A stretch of 64,000 nucleotides of DNA from Flavobacterium sp. 9. GTDB taxonomy: Bacteria; Bacteroidota; Bacteroidia; Flavobacteriales; Flavobacteriaceae. Location: contig NZ_PEEU01000001.1 of NCBI RefSeq assembly GCF_002754195.1, positions 2,418,001-2,482,000 on the forward strand, given 5' to 3'. The translations under genes were made by a program, and so were the position numbers. This document shows positions 2,390 through 10,197 of this stretch, piece after piece. The notes under the pieces are model-generated. The model was not told the origin of the DNA, did not search any database, and saw nothing but the letters and a program-made list of their open reading frames with translations. Numbering within the stretch: position 1 is the first letter of the stretch; every line of letters begins with the position of its first letter.

Positions 2390-2953
2390 TTATATTCTTA
2401 ATGAACCGCGAAATCCTCTGGCAGCATAATAAGAATCTGCTCCGTTGTGATATACAAAAACGGTATCATAACGGAAATCTGAAAAAATGGCGCCGCCCAA
2501 TTTCCTGATATTTGCCGGAGTTTGAATCCAACTTGAAGTTTTGGCATCGAATTTACCCAATTGCTGAAGTTCGCGATATTGTTCTTCGGTCAGGATTTCG
2601 ATTCCCATTTCTTCCGCCAAATTAATAGCGCTATTTGCAGGTTTATTTTCTTTCCTTTTTTCTAAAGCTTCGTGATCGTAACAAATGCTTCGGCGTCCTT
2701 TTGGACTTTCTGCTGAACAATCATAAAAAATATATTCTCCAGTTTTAGCATCAAAACCTACAACATCTGGTTCTCCTTCGGTTCTTTCCATTTCATCAAG
2801 TGACCAAAGTTTATCTGGATTTGCTTTTAGCTTTGCTTCAACTTTTGACCATTCAAGACCTTTATGACGTTGCATATTTTTTTCGAAACGAGTTTCTAAG
2901 ACACTCAATAATTCTTCTTGCTGTTCTGCTGATAATTTATTTTGTTGACTCAT
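2390..2953 (-). CDS. DUF4256 domain-containing protein
   Basis: A 187-residue soluble protein that matches DUF4256 over its whole length. Hallmarks are LETRFEKNMQRHKGLEW near the N-terminus, MERTEGEPDVVGFD and YIFYDCSAESPKGRRSICYD in the middle, and FVYHNGADSYYAARGFRG at the C-terminus. The family is widespread and has no known activity; the conserved Cys, His and Arg residues hint at an enzyme. It lies 45 bp downstream of the YdeI-like gene in the same direction and is probably co-transcribed. Confidence 0.88.
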   Translation of the reverse strand: MSQQNKLSAEQQEELLSVLETRFEKNMQRHKGLEWSKVEAKLKANPDKLWSLDEMERTEGEPDVVGFDAKTGEYIFYDCSAESPKGRRSICYDHEALEKRKENKPANSAINLAEEMGIEILTEEQYRELQQLGKFDAKTSSWIQTPANIRKLGGAIFSDFRYDTVFVYHNGADSYYAARGFRGSLRI

Positions 2954-2998
2954 ATAATTCTGTTTTATGGAATCTTAAACCTGATTTTAATTCAAATT

Positions 2999-3577
2999 CT
3001 AATCTTTCAAACCTTTTCCGTTCAGAATATTTGCGATACTATTTTCTACTCTCGATTCTCTGGTTTTGGATTGTTTAGGTTGAGAAAAATATAATAAATA
3101 ACCTCTTTGTCTGCCTGGAGTTAAGTCATAAAAAGCTTGTCTTAAATCGAGCATTTCGTCCAATTTCTTCTGAAACTCTTCTACAACTTCAAAATCAGTT
3201 GTCTTTTTAAGCGCGACTTTTAAGCCTGCTTTTTCTATTTCGATAGCCTGATAAATGTAGGTTTTCAAAATAGCTTTCTGCTCAATTATTTCTTTAAGAT
3301 TAGTAAATCTAATTTGGCGTCCAGCTTGTACATTCTCACTTTGATGCACCAAAATATTGTCGGTATCTTTTAATAAAGCGCCTTTGAAAAATAAGAAGGC
3401 ACAATATTCTTTGAAGGTATGAATCAAAACAACATTGTTTTTACCTAAAGTATAACAAGGACTTCCCCATTTTAATTCTTCGTTCAACTGACAATCAAGC
3501 GCAATTGCACGCAATTCTTCTTGTTCTTTTTGCCATTTTTCGGCTTTATCAAAATAAAAATCAACTTCAGGATTCAT
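2999..3577 (-). CDS. YdeI/OmpD-associated (DUF1801-like) family protein
   Basis: A 192-residue cytoplasmic protein. The N-terminal half carries the DUF1801/YdeI fold (EELKWGSPCYTLGKNNVVLIHTFKEY cut to key parts: LKWGSPCYTL, CAFLFFKGALL). The C-terminal half holds the YdeI-type helical region (FYDLTPGRQRGYLLYFSQPK, ESRVENSIANILNGKG). E. coli YdeI-like proteins are linked loosely to stress responses, but the biochemical role is unknown. It is probably in one unit with the downstream DUF4256 gene. The start ATG at 3577 fits the family length. Confidence 0.85.
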   Translation of the reverse strand: MNPEVDFYFDKAEKWQKEQEELRAIALDCQLNEELKWGSPCYTLGKNNVVLIHTFKEYCAFLFFKGALLKDTDNILVHQSENVQAGRQIRFTNLKEIIEQKAILKTYIYQAIEIEKAGLKVALKKTTDFEVVEEFQKKLDEMLDLRQAFYDLTPGRQRGYLLYFSQPKQSKTRESRVENSIANILNGKGLKD

Positions 3578-3668: not shown

Positions 3669-4730
3669 TTAATAATATTCAATTTCATATTTAGTTATTT
3701 CTTCTTCATACTCATTATCATAATAACATTTTCTTGCTTCTAAAATTAGATTGCCATTATCATCATAAAACTTTTCATTAGTTTCTTCCGTATTATTTCG
3801 GTCTTCAATGTAGTAAACTAATTTTCCGTTATCGTTAAAACTAAACTTCTCGCTTATTTTATTGAAACCATTGTTCATTGTTTTTTCAATCATATTACCT
3901 TTTTCGTCAAAAGAATATGCAAAATCAAGTTCCCGTTTATCATCCCAATCGGTATGAATTTCAAATGACATATGTTTAATCACCATTTTTAAATCATTAT
4001 ACTCGTAATGATCTCCGCTGACAAGCGCTATTGTACGTGAAGAAGACTCTTTATCATACTCAAATTCTTCTTGAAGTATTTTATTTCCAAATTCATCATA
4101 TTCATAAATGGTTTCAGAATCCAAAAAATTCATAGCCAAAGGAATATCTATTGTTTTTCCGGAAATATCAACACGAAATGCTTTCATCATTTCGAAATAT
4201 TCTTCAAAATACTGCAATTCGTCAGGATCATAATTCGTAACATCTCGCTTTCTAAAATATAGTGCTCTAATAAGCTCTTTTTTTTCGTTAAACTTTAGAA
4301 TCTGCAAATATTCGAGAAGTCCATTACTATCATAACGTTTGGTATATTCATCATTACCAATCAAATTATAAAGAATTGTACTCTCAATTTTATCTTCTGA
4401 ATCTAATGCTGTTTCAGATACTAGTTTTTGGTTTTTATCATATTTATAAAAACATTTAGATACATAATTTCCAATTCCGTCGTATTCTTCTTCGATTTTT
4501 TCTTCTTTATTTAATTTTTTCAGGTTTCTACCAACAAGAATTCCATCTGCATTAAATGTTTCCTTTAAAATGCTTTTGTTTTCGTACTTAAAAATCAGGA
4601 TGGACTTTAAAGATCCGCTATAAAAATCATATTCTTCTTCTTTAATTAATTTTCCCTGAGCATCAAAATATCGAGCACCTTTAATTTTATCCTCTGCTAT
4701 CTTTTTACAAGATTTTATTTTTTCATTCAT
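3669..4730 (-). CDS. YD/RHS-like repeat protein, function unknown
   Basis: A 353-residue protein with no signal peptide or membrane segment. It is built from short degenerate repeats of the form YDxxGxLxxExxY (for example RYFDAQGKLIKEEEYDF, EYDEFGNKILQEEFEYD, FDEKGNMIEKTMNN, FYDDNGNLILEARKCYY). These resemble the YD repeats of RHS/WapA proteins or the bacterial MORN-like variants, but the protein lacks an RHS core or toxin tip. It is very rich in Glu, Lys and Asp. It lies 109 bp downstream of the endonuclease V gene in the same direction. The biological role cannot be read from the sequence; an orphan or immunity-like role is only a guess. Confidence 0.6.
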   Translation of the reverse strand: MNEKIKSCKKIAEDKIKGARYFDAQGKLIKEEEYDFYSGSLKSILIFKYENKSILKETFNADGILVGRNLKKLNKEEKIEEEYDGIGNYVSKCFYKYDKNQKLVSETALDSEDKIESTILYNLIGNDEYTKRYDSNGLLEYLQILKFNEKKELIRALYFRKRDVTNYDPDELQYFEEYFEMMKAFRVDISGKTIDIPLAMNFLDSETIYEYDEFGNKILQEEFEYDKESSSRTIALVSGDHYEYNDLKMVIKHMSFEIHTDWDDKRELDFAYSFDEKGNMIEKTMNNGFNKISEKFSFNDNGKLVYYIEDRNNTEETNEKFYDDNGNLILEARKCYYDNEYEEEITKYEIEYY

Positions 4731-4839: not shown

Positions 4840-5343
4840 TTATATTTCCTTCGTTAATCGATCCATTTCTTTTAGCAAAGTTGGCATTCTAAATTCGCCC
4901 GCCATTTTTTCTACTTTCTCAAAAGCATCTTCCAGTTCAATACCAATTGCGGTAACATACAGCGGTTTTTTGCTTTCGCCTCTAAACCAGCTTTTTTTGT
5001 CTTTTTCGATTGAAGCAAAATTTGTTTTCGCCACACCAATAATCGCAACTTCTTTATTTAGTTTTTCATATAAATGTCCGCCTAAACCGTATTTCTTTTC
5101 ATCGTCCAGATAAACAAAACCATCAACTATAATGGCTTCAATATTTTTCAGATCAAATTTATCTAGAACACTAAGAATACAAGGCAATTCTCTTCGATAG
5201 AATTCTCCCGGAATATAATCTTCAACATTATCGATTATTTCTGTGTGAATTTTGAAGTTTTCACTTTGATTCCATTCTGTAAATTCAAGGCAAACGGTTT
5301 TTGCTTTTCCGTCGTAGTAATAAGTATCGAATGCTAATATCAT
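4840..5343 (-). CDS. Short endonuclease V-like nuclease
   Basis: A 167-residue protein with the ordered motifs of endonuclease V, which nicks nucleic acid next to deaminated bases such as inosine. D6 sits in AFDTYYYD (first metal-binding Asp), DYIPGEFYRRELP gives the conserved YxPGxxxxRE with E52, and IIVDGFVYLDDEKKYGLGGH gives the VDG Asp (D74) with the later glycine/histidine loop. IIGVAKTNF matches the IGVAK strand. It is shorter than typical bacterial Nfi (about 220 residues), and the usual HPR triad after VDG is replaced by an acidic stretch. Its ATG overlaps the stop of the upstream AlkB-like gene by 4 nt, so translation is probably coupled. Confidence 0.75.
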   Translation of the reverse strand: MILAFDTYYYDGKAKTVCLEFTEWNQSENFKIHTEIIDNVEDYIPGEFYRRELPCILSVLDKFDLKNIEAIIVDGFVYLDDEKKYGLGGHLYEKLNKEVAIIGVAKTNFASIEKDKKSWFRGESKKPLYVTAIGIELEDAFEKVEKMAGEFRMPTLLKEMDRLTKEI

Positions 5344-6119
5344 AATTTTGGCATAATAGTATCGCCTACACTAAGTGTGTACGATAGTTTTGGATAAGAA
5401 AAATTCATAACGCTGTTTTCTTGTCCTCTTAATTTAAAAAATTCTTTTTGTTGATCTTCATCTGCTAATGTCAATAATTCTCCGCTAGAAAAATAAGGCA
5501 AATTGTCCTTAAATTGTATAAAAGTTTTTGATTTTCGAAAAGTAATCCCAAGCCATTTATTATCTGATTCTGATCGTTTTGGATTCGGAAGTGATTCTAA
5601 AATAATCTTATGATGAAACTTTGCATTAGCTTCTAATGAAAAAATCACAACTGAATTATGTGTCAATGAAATTTCAAATTCTTCATTGGTGATTCTGTCT
5701 TTGAGTTTTAGTTTTCGGATATTTTTCTCGATTAGTTTCTCCGGATTTTCATAACAGCTAAAAAGTCCGATATAAGAATCTGCTTCTAAATCTAAACATT
5801 GATCTGAATGATATTTCATTGTCGTATAATTACAATCGTATCTTTCTATAAGCGCATTATTGAATTCTAATCGCGGCAAATCATCCGTTATATCATTTAT
5901 TGTTTCTACTAACTTATGATGAATCTCAGAAAAGTTTTGCGCCGGTATATTATACATTGTTGTTGTTCTCACTATTGGAACACCTTTGTCACTTACATCA
6001 ACCAAATGATTCCCGATTCTTCCTTTGGCAACATCTTCAAATTCTGCAGAAAGTAATAATTCATCGAATAAGTTCTTTTCTATCGGAAGTGTAATTTTAT
6101 AAAAATCTGACTTATTCAT
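5340..6119 (-). CDS. AlkB-like 2OG-Fe(II) dioxygenase-fold protein
   Basis: A 259-residue protein that I read as an AlkB-type 2-oxoglutarate/Fe(II) dioxygenase. Candidate iron ligands are H104 and D106 in KYHSDQCLDLEADSYIGLF, and H169 or H170 in NAKFHHKIIL. R195 in WLGITFRKSKTF is the expected 2OG-binding arginine. The spacing (HxD, about 64 residues to His, about 25 to Arg) and the strand THNSVVIFS before the distal His fit the double-stranded beta helix. The usual AlkB nucleotide-recognition lid is not obvious, so the substrate could be DNA, RNA or protein. It ends inside the endonuclease V start (ATGA overlap) and begins 23 bp after another dioxygenase-like gene. Confidence 0.65.
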   Translation of the reverse strand: MNKSDFYKITLPIEKNLFDELLLSAEFEDVAKGRIGNHLVDVSDKGVPIVRTTTMYNIPAQNFSEIHHKLVETINDITDDLPRLEFNNALIERYDCNYTTMKYHSDQCLDLEADSYIGLFSCYENPEKLIEKNIRKLKLKDRITNEEFEISLTHNSVVIFSLEANAKFHHKIILESLPNPKRSESDNKWLGITFRKSKTFIQFKDNLPYFSSGELLTLADEDQQKEFFKLRGQENSVMNFSYPKLSYTLSVGDTIMPKL

Positions 6120-6142
6120 AGTTTCTTTTATGGTGTTTCAAC

Positions 6143-7369
6143 TTAATATATTGGTTTTTCATAATCGCCTGAATTCATACTAAAGTGAATTTTTCCGTAT
6201 TCTACTTTCTTTTCCGTACTATTTTCTTCGTAATATGAATTTCTCAAATCGACCATCATTTCCGGAGTCATTTGTTCTAATTTAACCAACTCATTATTTT
6301 CTTTAATATACGTTTGACCTTTCATATATACAGCTTCCAGATTTGAACATCGGGCAACATAACCCATTCTAATCGGGATTTGATCGACATTCAAAACCGA
6401 TGGTTTAATTTCATGCGTGTATAATCTATTGGTAGAAAGCGGAATTAAAAAAGCCGAATTTGGATATAAGATAACCGTAAATTCTTTGTCTAAAGTATCG
6501 TCAATTACGGTGCTTTTTAACTTGAAATGAAGTCTCGTAAATCCGCTGCCTTTTTTATAACACCAATCGTATCGATCTTCTTTTGATGGCTTTAGTTTAT
6601 CAAAATTAGATTGATCATAAAAAGTACAAAAAGCAATAAGACCATCTTTTGGCATATCCTTCGTTTTATCAGAATGTGCTTTTATTTTAGATTTTACTTC
6701 TTTTGCATTTTCTTCCGTTTTCATTTTATTCTCGTAAATCTGAACCAAAACATGATTGAGTTTTGTTTCTTCTTCAAAAGTATATTTCACGGCATCGTTT
6801 AATGCATTTATTATAGTATGATCTGCATTACGAAAATTATCTGTTGGTCCGGTAAAATTACTGGAACATCTCAAAAGGCGAAAATTTAATCTTTCGTCTT
6901 CGGTTTCTTCTTTTGAAACTTCAGTTAAATAAATTCCTGTTCTTAATGCAGTAGATTCTTTATTCGATTCTGTTAAATGCTGAAAAATATGTTCCGATTT
7001 GATCGTATTAAAATAATTATCTTCGTCAAACATCTTTCTGAAATAAACTCCGGCATTGCTTACCAAAATAGGAACTTTACCCAATTCTATTAGATGAATA
7101 TTTTTTTCGTTTCGATTTTCATAATTTGTAGAAACTTCTTTGATTATGTATAAAGTATTATCATCATTCTGAAGTTGATTGATATCTCCACACACATAAA
7201 TCTTTTTGTCGTCAAGCGAAGTTGTAACTTCAGAAAGATTGTTTACCACAATTCCGCAAAAATTGTCGATTAGATATTGAAGTTCCGAAGTTATTTCTAC
7301 ATTTTGTTTTAAAACAATTAAAATATTTTTGTCTTTAGAAATTTTATTTTCAAAAGGAGATGATGTCAT
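6143..7369 (-). CDS. Putative 2OG-Fe(II) dioxygenase, uncharacterised
   Basis: A 408-residue protein without signal peptide. The C-terminal half shows a dioxygenase-like pattern: KIKAHSDKTKDMPKDGLIAF (H232-x-D234), then FTVILYPNSAFLIPLS as a strand, THEIKPS with H319, and IPIRMGYVARCS with R334 or R340 as the 2OG-arginine candidate. The N-terminal 130 residues look like a separate alpha/beta domain (ILIVLKQ, KIYVCGDIN, IHLIELGKVPILVSNAG). I do not recognise a named family with certainty. It is the first gene of a minus-strand run leading to the AlkB-like gene and endonuclease V. The substrate is unknown; the genomic company suggests nucleic acid. Confidence 0.55.
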   Translation of the reverse strand: MTSSPFENKISKDKNILIVLKQNVEITSELQYLIDNFCGIVVNNLSEVTTSLDDKKIYVCGDINQLQNDDNTLYIIKEVSTNYENRNEKNIHLIELGKVPILVSNAGVYFRKMFDEDNYFNTIKSEHIFQHLTESNKESTALRTGIYLTEVSKEETEDERLNFRLLRCSSNFTGPTDNFRNADHTIINALNDAVKYTFEEETKLNHVLVQIYENKMKTEENAKEVKSKIKAHSDKTKDMPKDGLIAFCTFYDQSNFDKLKPSKEDRYDWCYKKGSGFTRLHFKLKSTVIDDTLDKEFTVILYPNSAFLIPLSTNRLYTHEIKPSVLNVDQIPIRMGYVARCSNLEAVYMKGQTYIKENNELVKLEQMTPEMMVDLRNSYYEENSTEKKVEYGKIHFSMNSGDYEKPIY

Positions 7370-7511: not shown

Positions 7512-8846
7512 TTAATCTTCAACCAAAGAAATCTCAAAAACAGTTTTTTCACCTTCATTTTTATGTGCAATATAACCGCCATGAGCTTCTATAATATTTT
7601 TAGAAAGTGTCAATCCAATTCCCGCACCTTCATTTCTGGTAGTGAAAAACGGCAGGAATATTTTGTTTTCGATTTCTTTTTCAATGCCATTTCCGTTATC
7701 AATAATCCTGATAAAAATGCGGTTTTCTTTGGCTTCCGCCGAAATTAAAATTTGTTTTTCTTCAATATTTTTCAAGGCATAAATGCAATTGGTAAGAAGA
7801 TTAATCAAAACTTGCTCGATTTGTTGTGAATCAACATTTATCCAGCGTTTAAAAGAAATTTCGTTTACAACCTCAATCTTATTTTCCTTAAATAAGGGAT
7901 TCATGATTTGTACACAATTGTCTATCAAATAATGTAATTCTATTTTTTCTTTTTTGGGAGAAGGAAGCATCGCCAACTTTCGATAACCTTCGACAAATTT
8001 TTGAAGATGATCGCTTCGTCTCAACATAGTTTCTACACTGGTTTTGACATCTTCTAAATCTTCAGCCGATAATGAATCTTGCTCGACCAAATCCTGCAAA
8101 TTCTGACATATTGAACGAATTGGCGTTATGGAATTTAAAAGTTCATGCGAAATGACTTTCATCAAATTTACCCACGCATCTTTTTCTTTTTTCTCTACAA
8201 CATTCTGAATCGAATCGAGCAAAACGATAAAATAATCTTTCTCGAATATCTCTGTTCTCGAAGCTTGCAAAACAAACGTTTGCATATTTTGTTCGTTTAT
8301 CCGAATTTCTACCGATGTTTTTACTTCCTGAAAACCGTCTTCTTCAATAATCTCGCATAACGAAGGCAATTGATTTTTGAGATATTTCCATTTTGAAACT
8401 TTAGGAACATTAAAATGAGAAGAGAAATAATCGTTCAGCAAAAAAATATCCCAATCATTATCCTGCTTTTGTAAAATAATAATTCCGGTTTCGATATTAT
8501 TTAAAATAGAACGGTAAATGATATCTTTTGAAACTTGCTCGTTTTGCTTATTTTTCAAAGTATCATATAAAAGGAACAAATCATTATAACTTTTATTGAA
8601 TTTATGCTTTGTAAAATCCGAAGTAAAATCATTTTGCAAAATCGAAGCAATGGTTTTATCATAAAGCAAAACGAAATTTCGAACATAAAAATACATTTCT
8701 CTACCTAATAGAAAAACTATAAAAAGACCAAATACTGCGGTAAAAAGTAAACCTTCTTTAAAAAAATAAATAGAGATTTCTATTCCTGCCACAATAAAAA
8801 TTAATCTCAAAAAAAGAAGTTTATAAGTCTGAAATGATTTAAACAT
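7512..8846 (-). CDS. Sensor histidine kinase (NtrB-like partner)
   Basis: About 444 residues. Two N-terminal membrane segments (about residues 10-45) are followed by a PAS-like sensory region (IIYRSILNNIETGIIIL onward). The HisKA dimerisation helix has the phospho-accepting His in VISHELLNSITPIRS. The HATPase_c domain has NLLTNCIYAL (N box), IIDNGNGIE (G1) and FFTTRNEGAGIGLTLS (F and G2 boxes). A longer reading from 8909 overlaps the upstream regulator by 62 bp; the ATG at 8844-8846, one base after the regulator stop, starts a natural TM-leading N-terminus (MFKSFQTYKLLFLRL) and is preferred. It should phosphorylate the adjacent NtrC-type regulator. Confidence 0.92.
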   Translation of the reverse strand: MFKSFQTYKLLFLRLIFIVAGIEISIYFFKEGLLFTAVFGLFIVFLLGREMYFYVRNFVLLYDKTIASILQNDFTSDFTKHKFNKSYNDLFLLYDTLKNKQNEQVSKDIIYRSILNNIETGIIILQKQDNDWDIFLLNDYFSSHFNVPKVSKWKYLKNQLPSLCEIIEEDGFQEVKTSVEIRINEQNMQTFVLQASRTEIFEKDYFIVLLDSIQNVVEKKEKDAWVNLMKVISHELLNSITPIRSICQNLQDLVEQDSLSAEDLEDVKTSVETMLRRSDHLQKFVEGYRKLAMLPSPKKEKIELHYLIDNCVQIMNPLFKENKIEVVNEISFKRWINVDSQQIEQVLINLLTNCIYALKNIEEKQILISAEAKENRIFIRIIDNGNGIEKEIENKIFLPFFTTRNEGAGIGLTLSKNIIEAHGGYIAHKNEGEKTVFEISLVED

Positions 8847-8847
8847 A

Positions 8848-10197
8848 TTAATTGATATTGATGTTATATTTCTCCAGACGACGATACAAAGAACCTCTTG
8901 ACAACCCAAGTTCTTCGGCAGTTTTACTGATATTATTATTGTTTTTTACTAATGCTTTTTCTACCGCCGCTTTCTCAACTGAAGAAAGTTGAACATCATC
9001 CGGATTTTCTTCATACGTTGTAATCGTTTCTAAATCTAAATCAGAAACCGTGATTTTATTATTTTCACAAAGAATAACAGCGCGTTCTATTTTATTTTCC
9101 ATTTCCCTGATGTTTCCATTCCAGGCATGTTTTTCTATTTGTTCCAATACTTTTTTATCAAAAGTAATTTCATCTCTTCCGTATTTTTCAATCATTTTAT
9201 CCAGAAGATATTCAGCTAACGGAATTTTATCTTCGTTACGTTCGCGCAACGGAGGCAAAATAATTTCCATCGTATTGATTCTATAATATAAATCTTCTCT
9301 AAAACTTTTATCGGCAACTTCAAGTTTCAGGTTTAAATTTGTTGCCGTAATAATTCGAACATTCAAAGGTCTTGGTTTGGTTTCGCCCAATCTTGTTACG
9401 GTTTTGGTTTGAATAACCTGCAAAAGTTTAGATTGCAAATGCAGCGGAACATTCCCGATTTCGTCTAAAAAAATAGTTCCGTTTTGAGCCATTTCAAATC
9501 GTCCCGGCGTATCTATTTTTGCATCTGTAAAAGCACCTTTGGCATAACCGAATAATTCACTTTCGAAAATATTCGAGTTTAAAGATCCTAAATCAACGGC
9601 AATAAAAGGATTGTTTTTTCTTTCGGATTGACTAAAAATATGATGCGCCAAAACAAATTTTCCGGTTCCGTTTTCTCCAAGGATTAAAACATTGGCATCG
9701 GTTTTTGCCACTTTATCAGCCAGAGAATATGCTTTTTTTATAATCTCAGAAGTTCCAATAAAAAAGTTGTCTTCGACTGCAACATTTTTAATCTTCTTTT
9801 GGTCTTTTCGGGATTTATCAACGGCTTGTTTTACAGATTCAAGCAGCTTTTTATTTTCCCAAGGTTTTAGAATATAATCAAAAGCACCATTTTTTAAACC
9901 TTCAACCGCAGTGTCTACTTTTCCAAAAGCAGTCATTAAAATCACAACGGTTTTTGGCGAAAGCGTTTTTATTTCTTTCAATAAATACAAACCTTCTCTT
10001 CCGTCTTCAAAACCTATTCGATAATTCATGTCGAGCAAAACGACATCAATTGTTTTTTTAGACAATAATTCGACAATATTTTTGGGATTATTTAGCGTAT
10101 AAATGTCTTCAAAATACTTTTTCAGGAACACTTTTGACGCAAAAAGTATGTCTTCCTGATCATCGATAATTAATATTGACGCATTTGTCTTTTTCAT
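8848..10197 (-). CDS. Sigma-54-dependent response regulator, NtrC family
   Basis: A 449-residue three-domain activator. The receiver domain has the acidic pocket D12/D13, phospho-acceptor D56 (VVLLDMNYR), and T89 and K111. The AAA+ domain has Walker A GENGTGKF (a Phe where Glu is usual), ESELFGYAKGAFTDA (the sigma-54 contact loop, GAFTDA rather than GAFTGA), Walker B GTIFLDEIGN and the REDLYYRIN / PPLRER motifs. The C-terminal Fis-type helix-turn-helix is NISKTAEELGLSRGSLYRRL. It is divergent from an ABC transporter operon. The intergenic region holds two overlapping inverted repeats and a -24/-12 promoter, which makes the operon its likely target. Confidence 0.95.
   Translation of the reverse strand: MKKTNASILIIDDQEDILFASKVFLKKYFEDIYTLNNPKNIVELLSKKTIDVVLLDMNYRIGFEDGREGLYLLKEIKTLSPKTVVILMTAFGKVDTAVEGLKNGAFDYILKPWENKKLLESVKQAVDKSRKDQKKIKNVAVEDNFFIGTSEIIKKAYSLADKVAKTDANVLILGENGTGKFVLAHHIFSQSERKNNPFIAVDLGSLNSNIFESELFGYAKGAFTDAKIDTPGRFEMAQNGTIFLDEIGNVPLHLQSKLLQVIQTKTVTRLGETKPRPLNVRIITATNLNLKLEVADKSFREDLYYRINTMEIILPPLRERNEDKIPLAEYLLDKMIEKYGRDEITFDKKVLEQIEKHAWNGNIREMENKIERAVILCENNKITVSDLDLETITTYEENPDDVQLSSVEKAAVEKALVKNNNNISKTAEELGLSRGSLYRRLEKYNININ

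Follow-up and report, generated by a model that had tools for sequence, protein, structure and literature searches.

A fixed pair of AlkB-like genes with a short endonuclease V as frequent, non-obligatory genetic partner in Flavobacterium and other Bacteroidota

In the stretch of Flavobacterium sp. 9 DNA analysed here (64,000 nucleotides, referred to as the window), two adjacent genes, A and B, encode AlkB paralogues and occur as a fixed pair, which is the firm finding of this study, and gene C, encoding a short endonuclease V (EndoV), represents a frequent but non-obligatory genetic partner of this pair. No description of such a gene set was found in the literature searched, largely without subscription papers, and this agrees with the original prediction, in which no named system with this layout was recognized.

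Organization of the locus

As originally proposed, three tightly packed genes, one junction with a small gap and the other with an overlapping stop and start codon, were confirmed as open reading frames at 4840-7369 (Table 1). All three are under purifying selection, with dN/dS values of 0.04-0.14 in nine gene comparisons to G673, G511, and G620. A promoter scan at the locus gave a result no better than that of shuffled sequences.

Table 1. Features of the AB-C locus and its upstream context in the window.
Feature	Position	Strand	Size	Description
Gene A	6143..7369	-	408 aa	AlkB-fold prediction; N-terminal addition (approximately residues 1-97) and C-terminal tail
A/B spacer	6120..6142	-	23 bp	Gap
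Gene B	5340..6119	-	259 aa	Paralogue of A in the AlkB family
B/C overlap	5340..5343	-	4 nt	ATGA, shared by the B stop and the C start codon
Gene C	4840..5343	-	167 aa	Short member of the endonuclease V family (PF04493)
Sensor histidine kinase (HK)	7512..8909	-		Pfam; context, outside the cassette; near C without AB in L065, L069, and L072
NtrC-type response regulator	8848..10197	-		Pfam; context

A and B are AlkB-like paralogues

Judged by sequence and predicted fold, B is an AlkB-family protein, scoring 42 bits against PF13532 (Pfam cutoff 31.2). A remains under the same cutoff with 19.1 bits and is thus named AlkB-like due to its predicted fold and its paralogy to B, not as a Pfam member. 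In structure predictions, both proteins adopt an AlkB-type fold with human ALKBH2 as the best structural match, in agreement with the 2OG-Fe(II) dioxygenase-type fold initially suspected. In case of A, the HxD loop (residues 231-234) is modelled with a pLDDT below 50.

The predicted HxD...H...R patterns are retained. In A, the putative iron ligands H232, D234, and H319 as well as both candidate arginines, R334 and R340, are invariant in 55 aligned sequences. In B, the putative iron ligands H104, D106, and H170 together with R195 are invariant in 63 aligned sequences, but H169, named as an alternative to H170, is not conserved. These alignments were drawn from the named loci and the best 120 of 2592 A matches and of 731 B matches, respectively, all at least 52% identical; loss of the HxD/H/R residues in orthologues, which was considered to speak against the original prediction, was not seen among them. 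Searches of PDB sequences with B and with the A profile gave no match, and the B profile retrieved one unrelated chain (E 0.11).

A and B share a common C-terminal tail, which extends in both proteins past the match to ALKBH2, A being additionally enlarged at its N-terminus. Compared to the AlkB family (human ALKBH2/ALKBH3, FTO, and E. coli AlkB), the likeness of A and B consists of the predicted fold and the HxD...H...R residues, and for B also of the PF13532 match; unlike the known members, A and B are two paralogues that are always encoded together. The window genome holds four other, stronger AlkB-family matches.

Some AlkB relatives are thought to act on substrates other than nucleic-acid bases. 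That A and B use a protein, a free nucleotide, or a small molecule appears quite unlikely to us. Such a substrate would fit a likeness to nucleic-acid enzymes at the level of the fold only, with 11-18% identity to solved AlkB-type structures, and the presence of ALKBH7 among the structure matches of A, but two DNA enzymes, ALKBH2 and ALKBH3, rank best among the matches, B exceeds the Pfam cutoff, and the pair is genetically linked to a nuclease. The substrate of A and B is presumably nucleic acid.

A is rare and strictly paired with B

Gene A was identified in 3 of 395 sampled genomes of the Bacteroidota; for the genus and the order of the window, the samples gave 12 of 299 and 6 of 276, respectively. 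As these samples overlap, they comprise 17 distinct A-carrying genomes, in all of which A adjoins B. The same was observed for 17 of 18 named AB loci, the contig of L012 beginning too near B to tell; in L017, A is partial and situated at a contig end. A pattern scan using B, rather than random sampling, supplied the named loci, many of which belong to metagenome-assembled genomes. L001, L002, and L003 appear identical to G620, G511, and G550, respectively, with which they agree in contig numbers and coordinates, and L005 and L009 as well as L007 and L008 are near relatives. Broken copies of A occur in L008:4746-5976 (frame break) and G872:C1:2633215-2634443 (stops), each adjacent to a full-length B reading frame.

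Furthermore, the pair is present in two Actinomycetota, Embleya and Nonomuraea, with identities of 45-47% for A and 45-46% for B, the matched stretches of A and B being 34 and 20 nt apart, respectively. Since the pairing is strict and the tail is common to both proteins, we infer that the two associate as a heteromer.

Both actinomycetotal pairs (L075:8001-9975 and L076:8001-9769) were found in the plasmid collection, on replicons of very large size. The incomplete gene table of this collection lists no gene for these regions.

C is a short, divergent endonuclease V family protein

By its sequence, C is a short and divergent member of the EndoV family. It matches PF04493 with 36.6 bits (Pfam cutoff 23.4) and is the only EndoV found in the window genome, but falls far below the cutoffs of the NCBIfam equivalogs of deoxyribonuclease V (nfi), with 30 bits versus 230 (NF008629) and 24.4 bits versus 300 (NF041102). 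In PDB sequence searches, EndoVs were found weakly, with a best E of 0.017 for the sequence and 0.00026 for the profile.

The D/E/D carboxylates of EndoV have a catalytic role. The EndoV motif residues D6, E52, and D74 pointed out in the original prediction are invariant among the aligned relatives of C and correspond to those of canonical EndoV. Likewise, Y43, K106, R152, and D161 are kept together with the three carboxylates in all nine aligned sequences, in accordance with the canonical EndoV of L051. Y43 and P45, the tyrosine and proline of the wedge, are invariant in 16 relatives, with S replacing P45 in one sequence of the separate nine-sequence alignment. Compared to the PYIP wedge of EndoV described in PMC4650699, the first P is represented by D or another residue, and the I is variable.

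In relation to the canonical EndoV of L051, C starts approximately 40 residues later and lacks both an internal loop and the HPR motif, so that the shortness and the absence of HPR noticed initially were borne out by the alignment. The idea of a truncated or decaying EndoV was ruled out, since the relatives are of similar length (166-173 aa among the best 120 listed) and dN/dS is low.

C accompanies AB frequently, but is not specific to it

The search for C was positive for 20 of 395 genomes of the phylum, 59 of 299 of the genus (two of them, G398 and G646, with fragments), and 48 of 276 of the order. Each sampled genome with A also contains C (3/3, 12/12, and 6/6 for phylum, genus, and order, respectively; 17/17 distinct genomes). 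Direct adjacency to AB was observed in 9 of these 17, in the order A-B-C in G000, G493, G673, G511, G620, G481, G448, and G202, and in the order C-A-B in G550. In G492, G469, G650, G617, G312, G840, G849, and G872, C is located elsewhere in the genome. The conserved co-occurrence of three genes that was originally envisaged holds for the A-B pairing and for the presence of C in all 17 genomes, but not as an obligatory arrangement, since C is adjacent in only about half of them and common without AB: within the genus, A is missing from 47 of the 59 genomes with C. C is therefore not specific to AB; it is a frequent, but not an obligatory partner.

For the genomes of the named loci, the same protein search identified C in 15 of 18. 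In the genome of L012, a canonical EndoV occurs in place of C, and the genomes of L014 and L017 yielded no EndoV. C adjoins AB in 8 of the 18 loci (L001, L002, L003, L006, L007, L008, L010, and L015). No match to C was obtained in the 17-kb loci that contain the AB pairs of Embleya and Nonomuraea, and a search of one Embleya replicon for EndoV gave nothing over the cutoff.

Co-occurrence of AB and C gave Fisher p values of 1.3e-9 (genus), 1.1e-4 (phylum), and 2.1e-5 (order), which ignore relatedness. For the genus, this association is confounded to a large extent, as 10 of 14 genomes of at least 4.7 Mb carry C, and inside large-genome Flavobacterium it is weak. At this rate of C, the probability that 12 of 12 genomes contain it would be about 1-2% (hand calculation).

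These numbers bear on a possible, if doubtful, alternative, in which the dioxygenase pair AB is self-contained and C serves independently as a housekeeping nuclease for inosine, the genes being neighbours only as repair genes of larger Bacteroidota genomes. The frequency of C without AB, its unlinked position in 8 of the 17 sampled genomes with A, and its presence in most large genomes of the genus agree with such independence. Less easily reconciled with it is the situation outside Flavobacterium, where 12 of the 15 named genomes with AB contain C versus 8 of 371 phylum-sample genomes of other genera, one of these 8 (G312) itself carrying A. The gene neighbourhoods also point in both directions.

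Microsynteny of AB and C

With up to four genes read per side, C is the commonest neighbour of AB, lying within four genes in 12 of 30 loci. The next-commonest family follows in 5 of 30 loci, and two scanned members of it match FAD_binding_3. These counts rule out that AB travels with a fixed set of neighbours.

The contexts in which C adjoins AB are in several cases unrelated, and two gene orders occur. The arrangement of HK and NtrC-type regulator genes, AB, and C is common to the window, L001, and L002, and other flanks surround AB and C in G448, G202, G481, L003/G550, L006, L007, L010, and L015. C follows B in 13 loci (L001 and L002 being counted once with G620 and G511), and the exact ATGA overlap was observed in 8 of them. 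It would also be present in G202 if translation of C begins five codons upstream, at an in-frame ATG; in G481 an upstream ATG results in an overlap of 8 nt, and gaps of 25-44 nt separate B and C in L007, L008, and L010. Recurrence of this adjacency and of the ATGA overlap argues against the independence of C considered above.

In favor of independence, the HK-NtrC flank is kept beside C without AB in G445, G486, and G603, either directly or with one gene intervening. The HK-C junction of G445 fits both an insertion of AB beside a resident C and a loss of AB, and the repeated ATGA overlaps in distant loci would fit a loss of AB from an ancestral ABC arrangement. In a quick tree of C, AB-linked and AB-less members are intermixed, with 8 changes of which at least 5 are forced by starred branches. 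Constant inheritance of ABC as a single unit is thus not supported. The genome of L007 contains a second, distant C in addition to the AB-adjacent copy.

Possible function of AB and C

AlkB reverses base methylation by oxidation with iron and 2-oxoglutarate, as stated in PMC2800194 and PMC6943663, and AlkB enzymes are usually viewed as single-protein repair (PMC3265494). The cut made by EndoV lies 3' of inosine, and with manganese the E. coli enzyme acts on other lesions as well (PMC4650699). According to PMC10779285, an archaeal alkyltransferase-EndoV fusion, AGTendoV of Ferroplasma acidarmanus, acts on lesions caused by alkylation and on some products of deamination. It likewise couples direct reversal of alkylation genetically to EndoV, but is a fusion protein with an alkyltransferase, whereas A and B are separate dioxygenase-like genes.

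By analogy with this fusion, AB would provide direct reversal and C an excision arm. Specifically, A and B, encoded side by side, would form a two-subunit Fe(II)/2-oxoglutarate dioxygenase oxidizing altered bases in DNA or RNA, and C, adjacent or elsewhere in the genome, would act as excision back-up, incising at bases which AB cannot restore or at deaminated bases. This is the reading we tentatively prefer, although we hold it just short of probable. It is favored by the predicted folds and motifs, the paralogy of A and B via the tail, their strict pairing, the co-occurrence of C and its rank as commonest neighbour, the B-C overlap in unrelated contexts, and the alkyltransferase-EndoV fusion as a precedent. 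Counted against it are the occurrence of C without AB, apart from AB, and in large genomes of the genus anyway, the two AB genomes that yielded no EndoV, the 17-kb actinomycetotal loci without C, the stronger AlkB-family matches elsewhere in the window genome, the sub-cutoff score of A, and its poorly modelled HxD loop.

A dedicated oxidise-then-cut pathway, in which an A-B heterodimer converts a specific modified DNA or RNA base to a product to which the short EndoV is tuned for incision, one subunit perhaps reading and the other oxidizing, seems unlikely. If true, it would constitute an excision route unlike single-enzyme AlkB reversal. The side-by-side paralogues in Bacteroidota and Actinomycetota suggest a heteromeric AlkB. 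As they are recurrently coupled to a short EndoV, oxidative reversal would be connected to inosine-type incision in bacteria in a way open to testing, and EndoV might have a task other than spontaneous deamination.

Defence was considered due to the patchy distribution of A. A cassette for defence or counter-modification against phage nucleic acid would also agree with the varied contexts and the broken A copies in L008 and G872, but is the least probable of the alternatives and was set aside. PADLOC models searched against A, B, C, and seven neighbours from other loci gave no family at E 0.01, none of 28 pattern stretches in viral contigs was confirmed as a relative of A, phage records contained no match to A, and the scanned flanking genes look ordinary. 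Hence, among the roles in repair, editing, or defence originally suggested, repair is the likeliest, and nothing in the PADLOC search and the viral and phage searches with A points to defence. The AB-C cassette likely serves repair, and we infer catalysis, the nucleic-acid substrate, the A-B complex, and the division of labour within it. As a whole, the original interpretation is partly supported, and the observation behind it is confirmed.

Further genes in the vicinity

Downstream of C, the window encodes a 353-aa YD/RHS-repeat-like protein (3669-4730). In G486 (L072), a relative of it is instead situated between HK and C, so that C has variable junctions. Genes with DUF4256 and DUF1801/OmdA (YdeI-type) domains, located at 2390-3577 in the window, occur near C in several genomes, irrespective of whether AB is present or absent. 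In the related Crocinitomix loci, one gene family is found downstream of AB (L009:2117-2548 and L005:6671-7021), and its L009 copy matches cREC_REC (PF20274, cyclic-phosphate processing receiver) with 84.5 bits.
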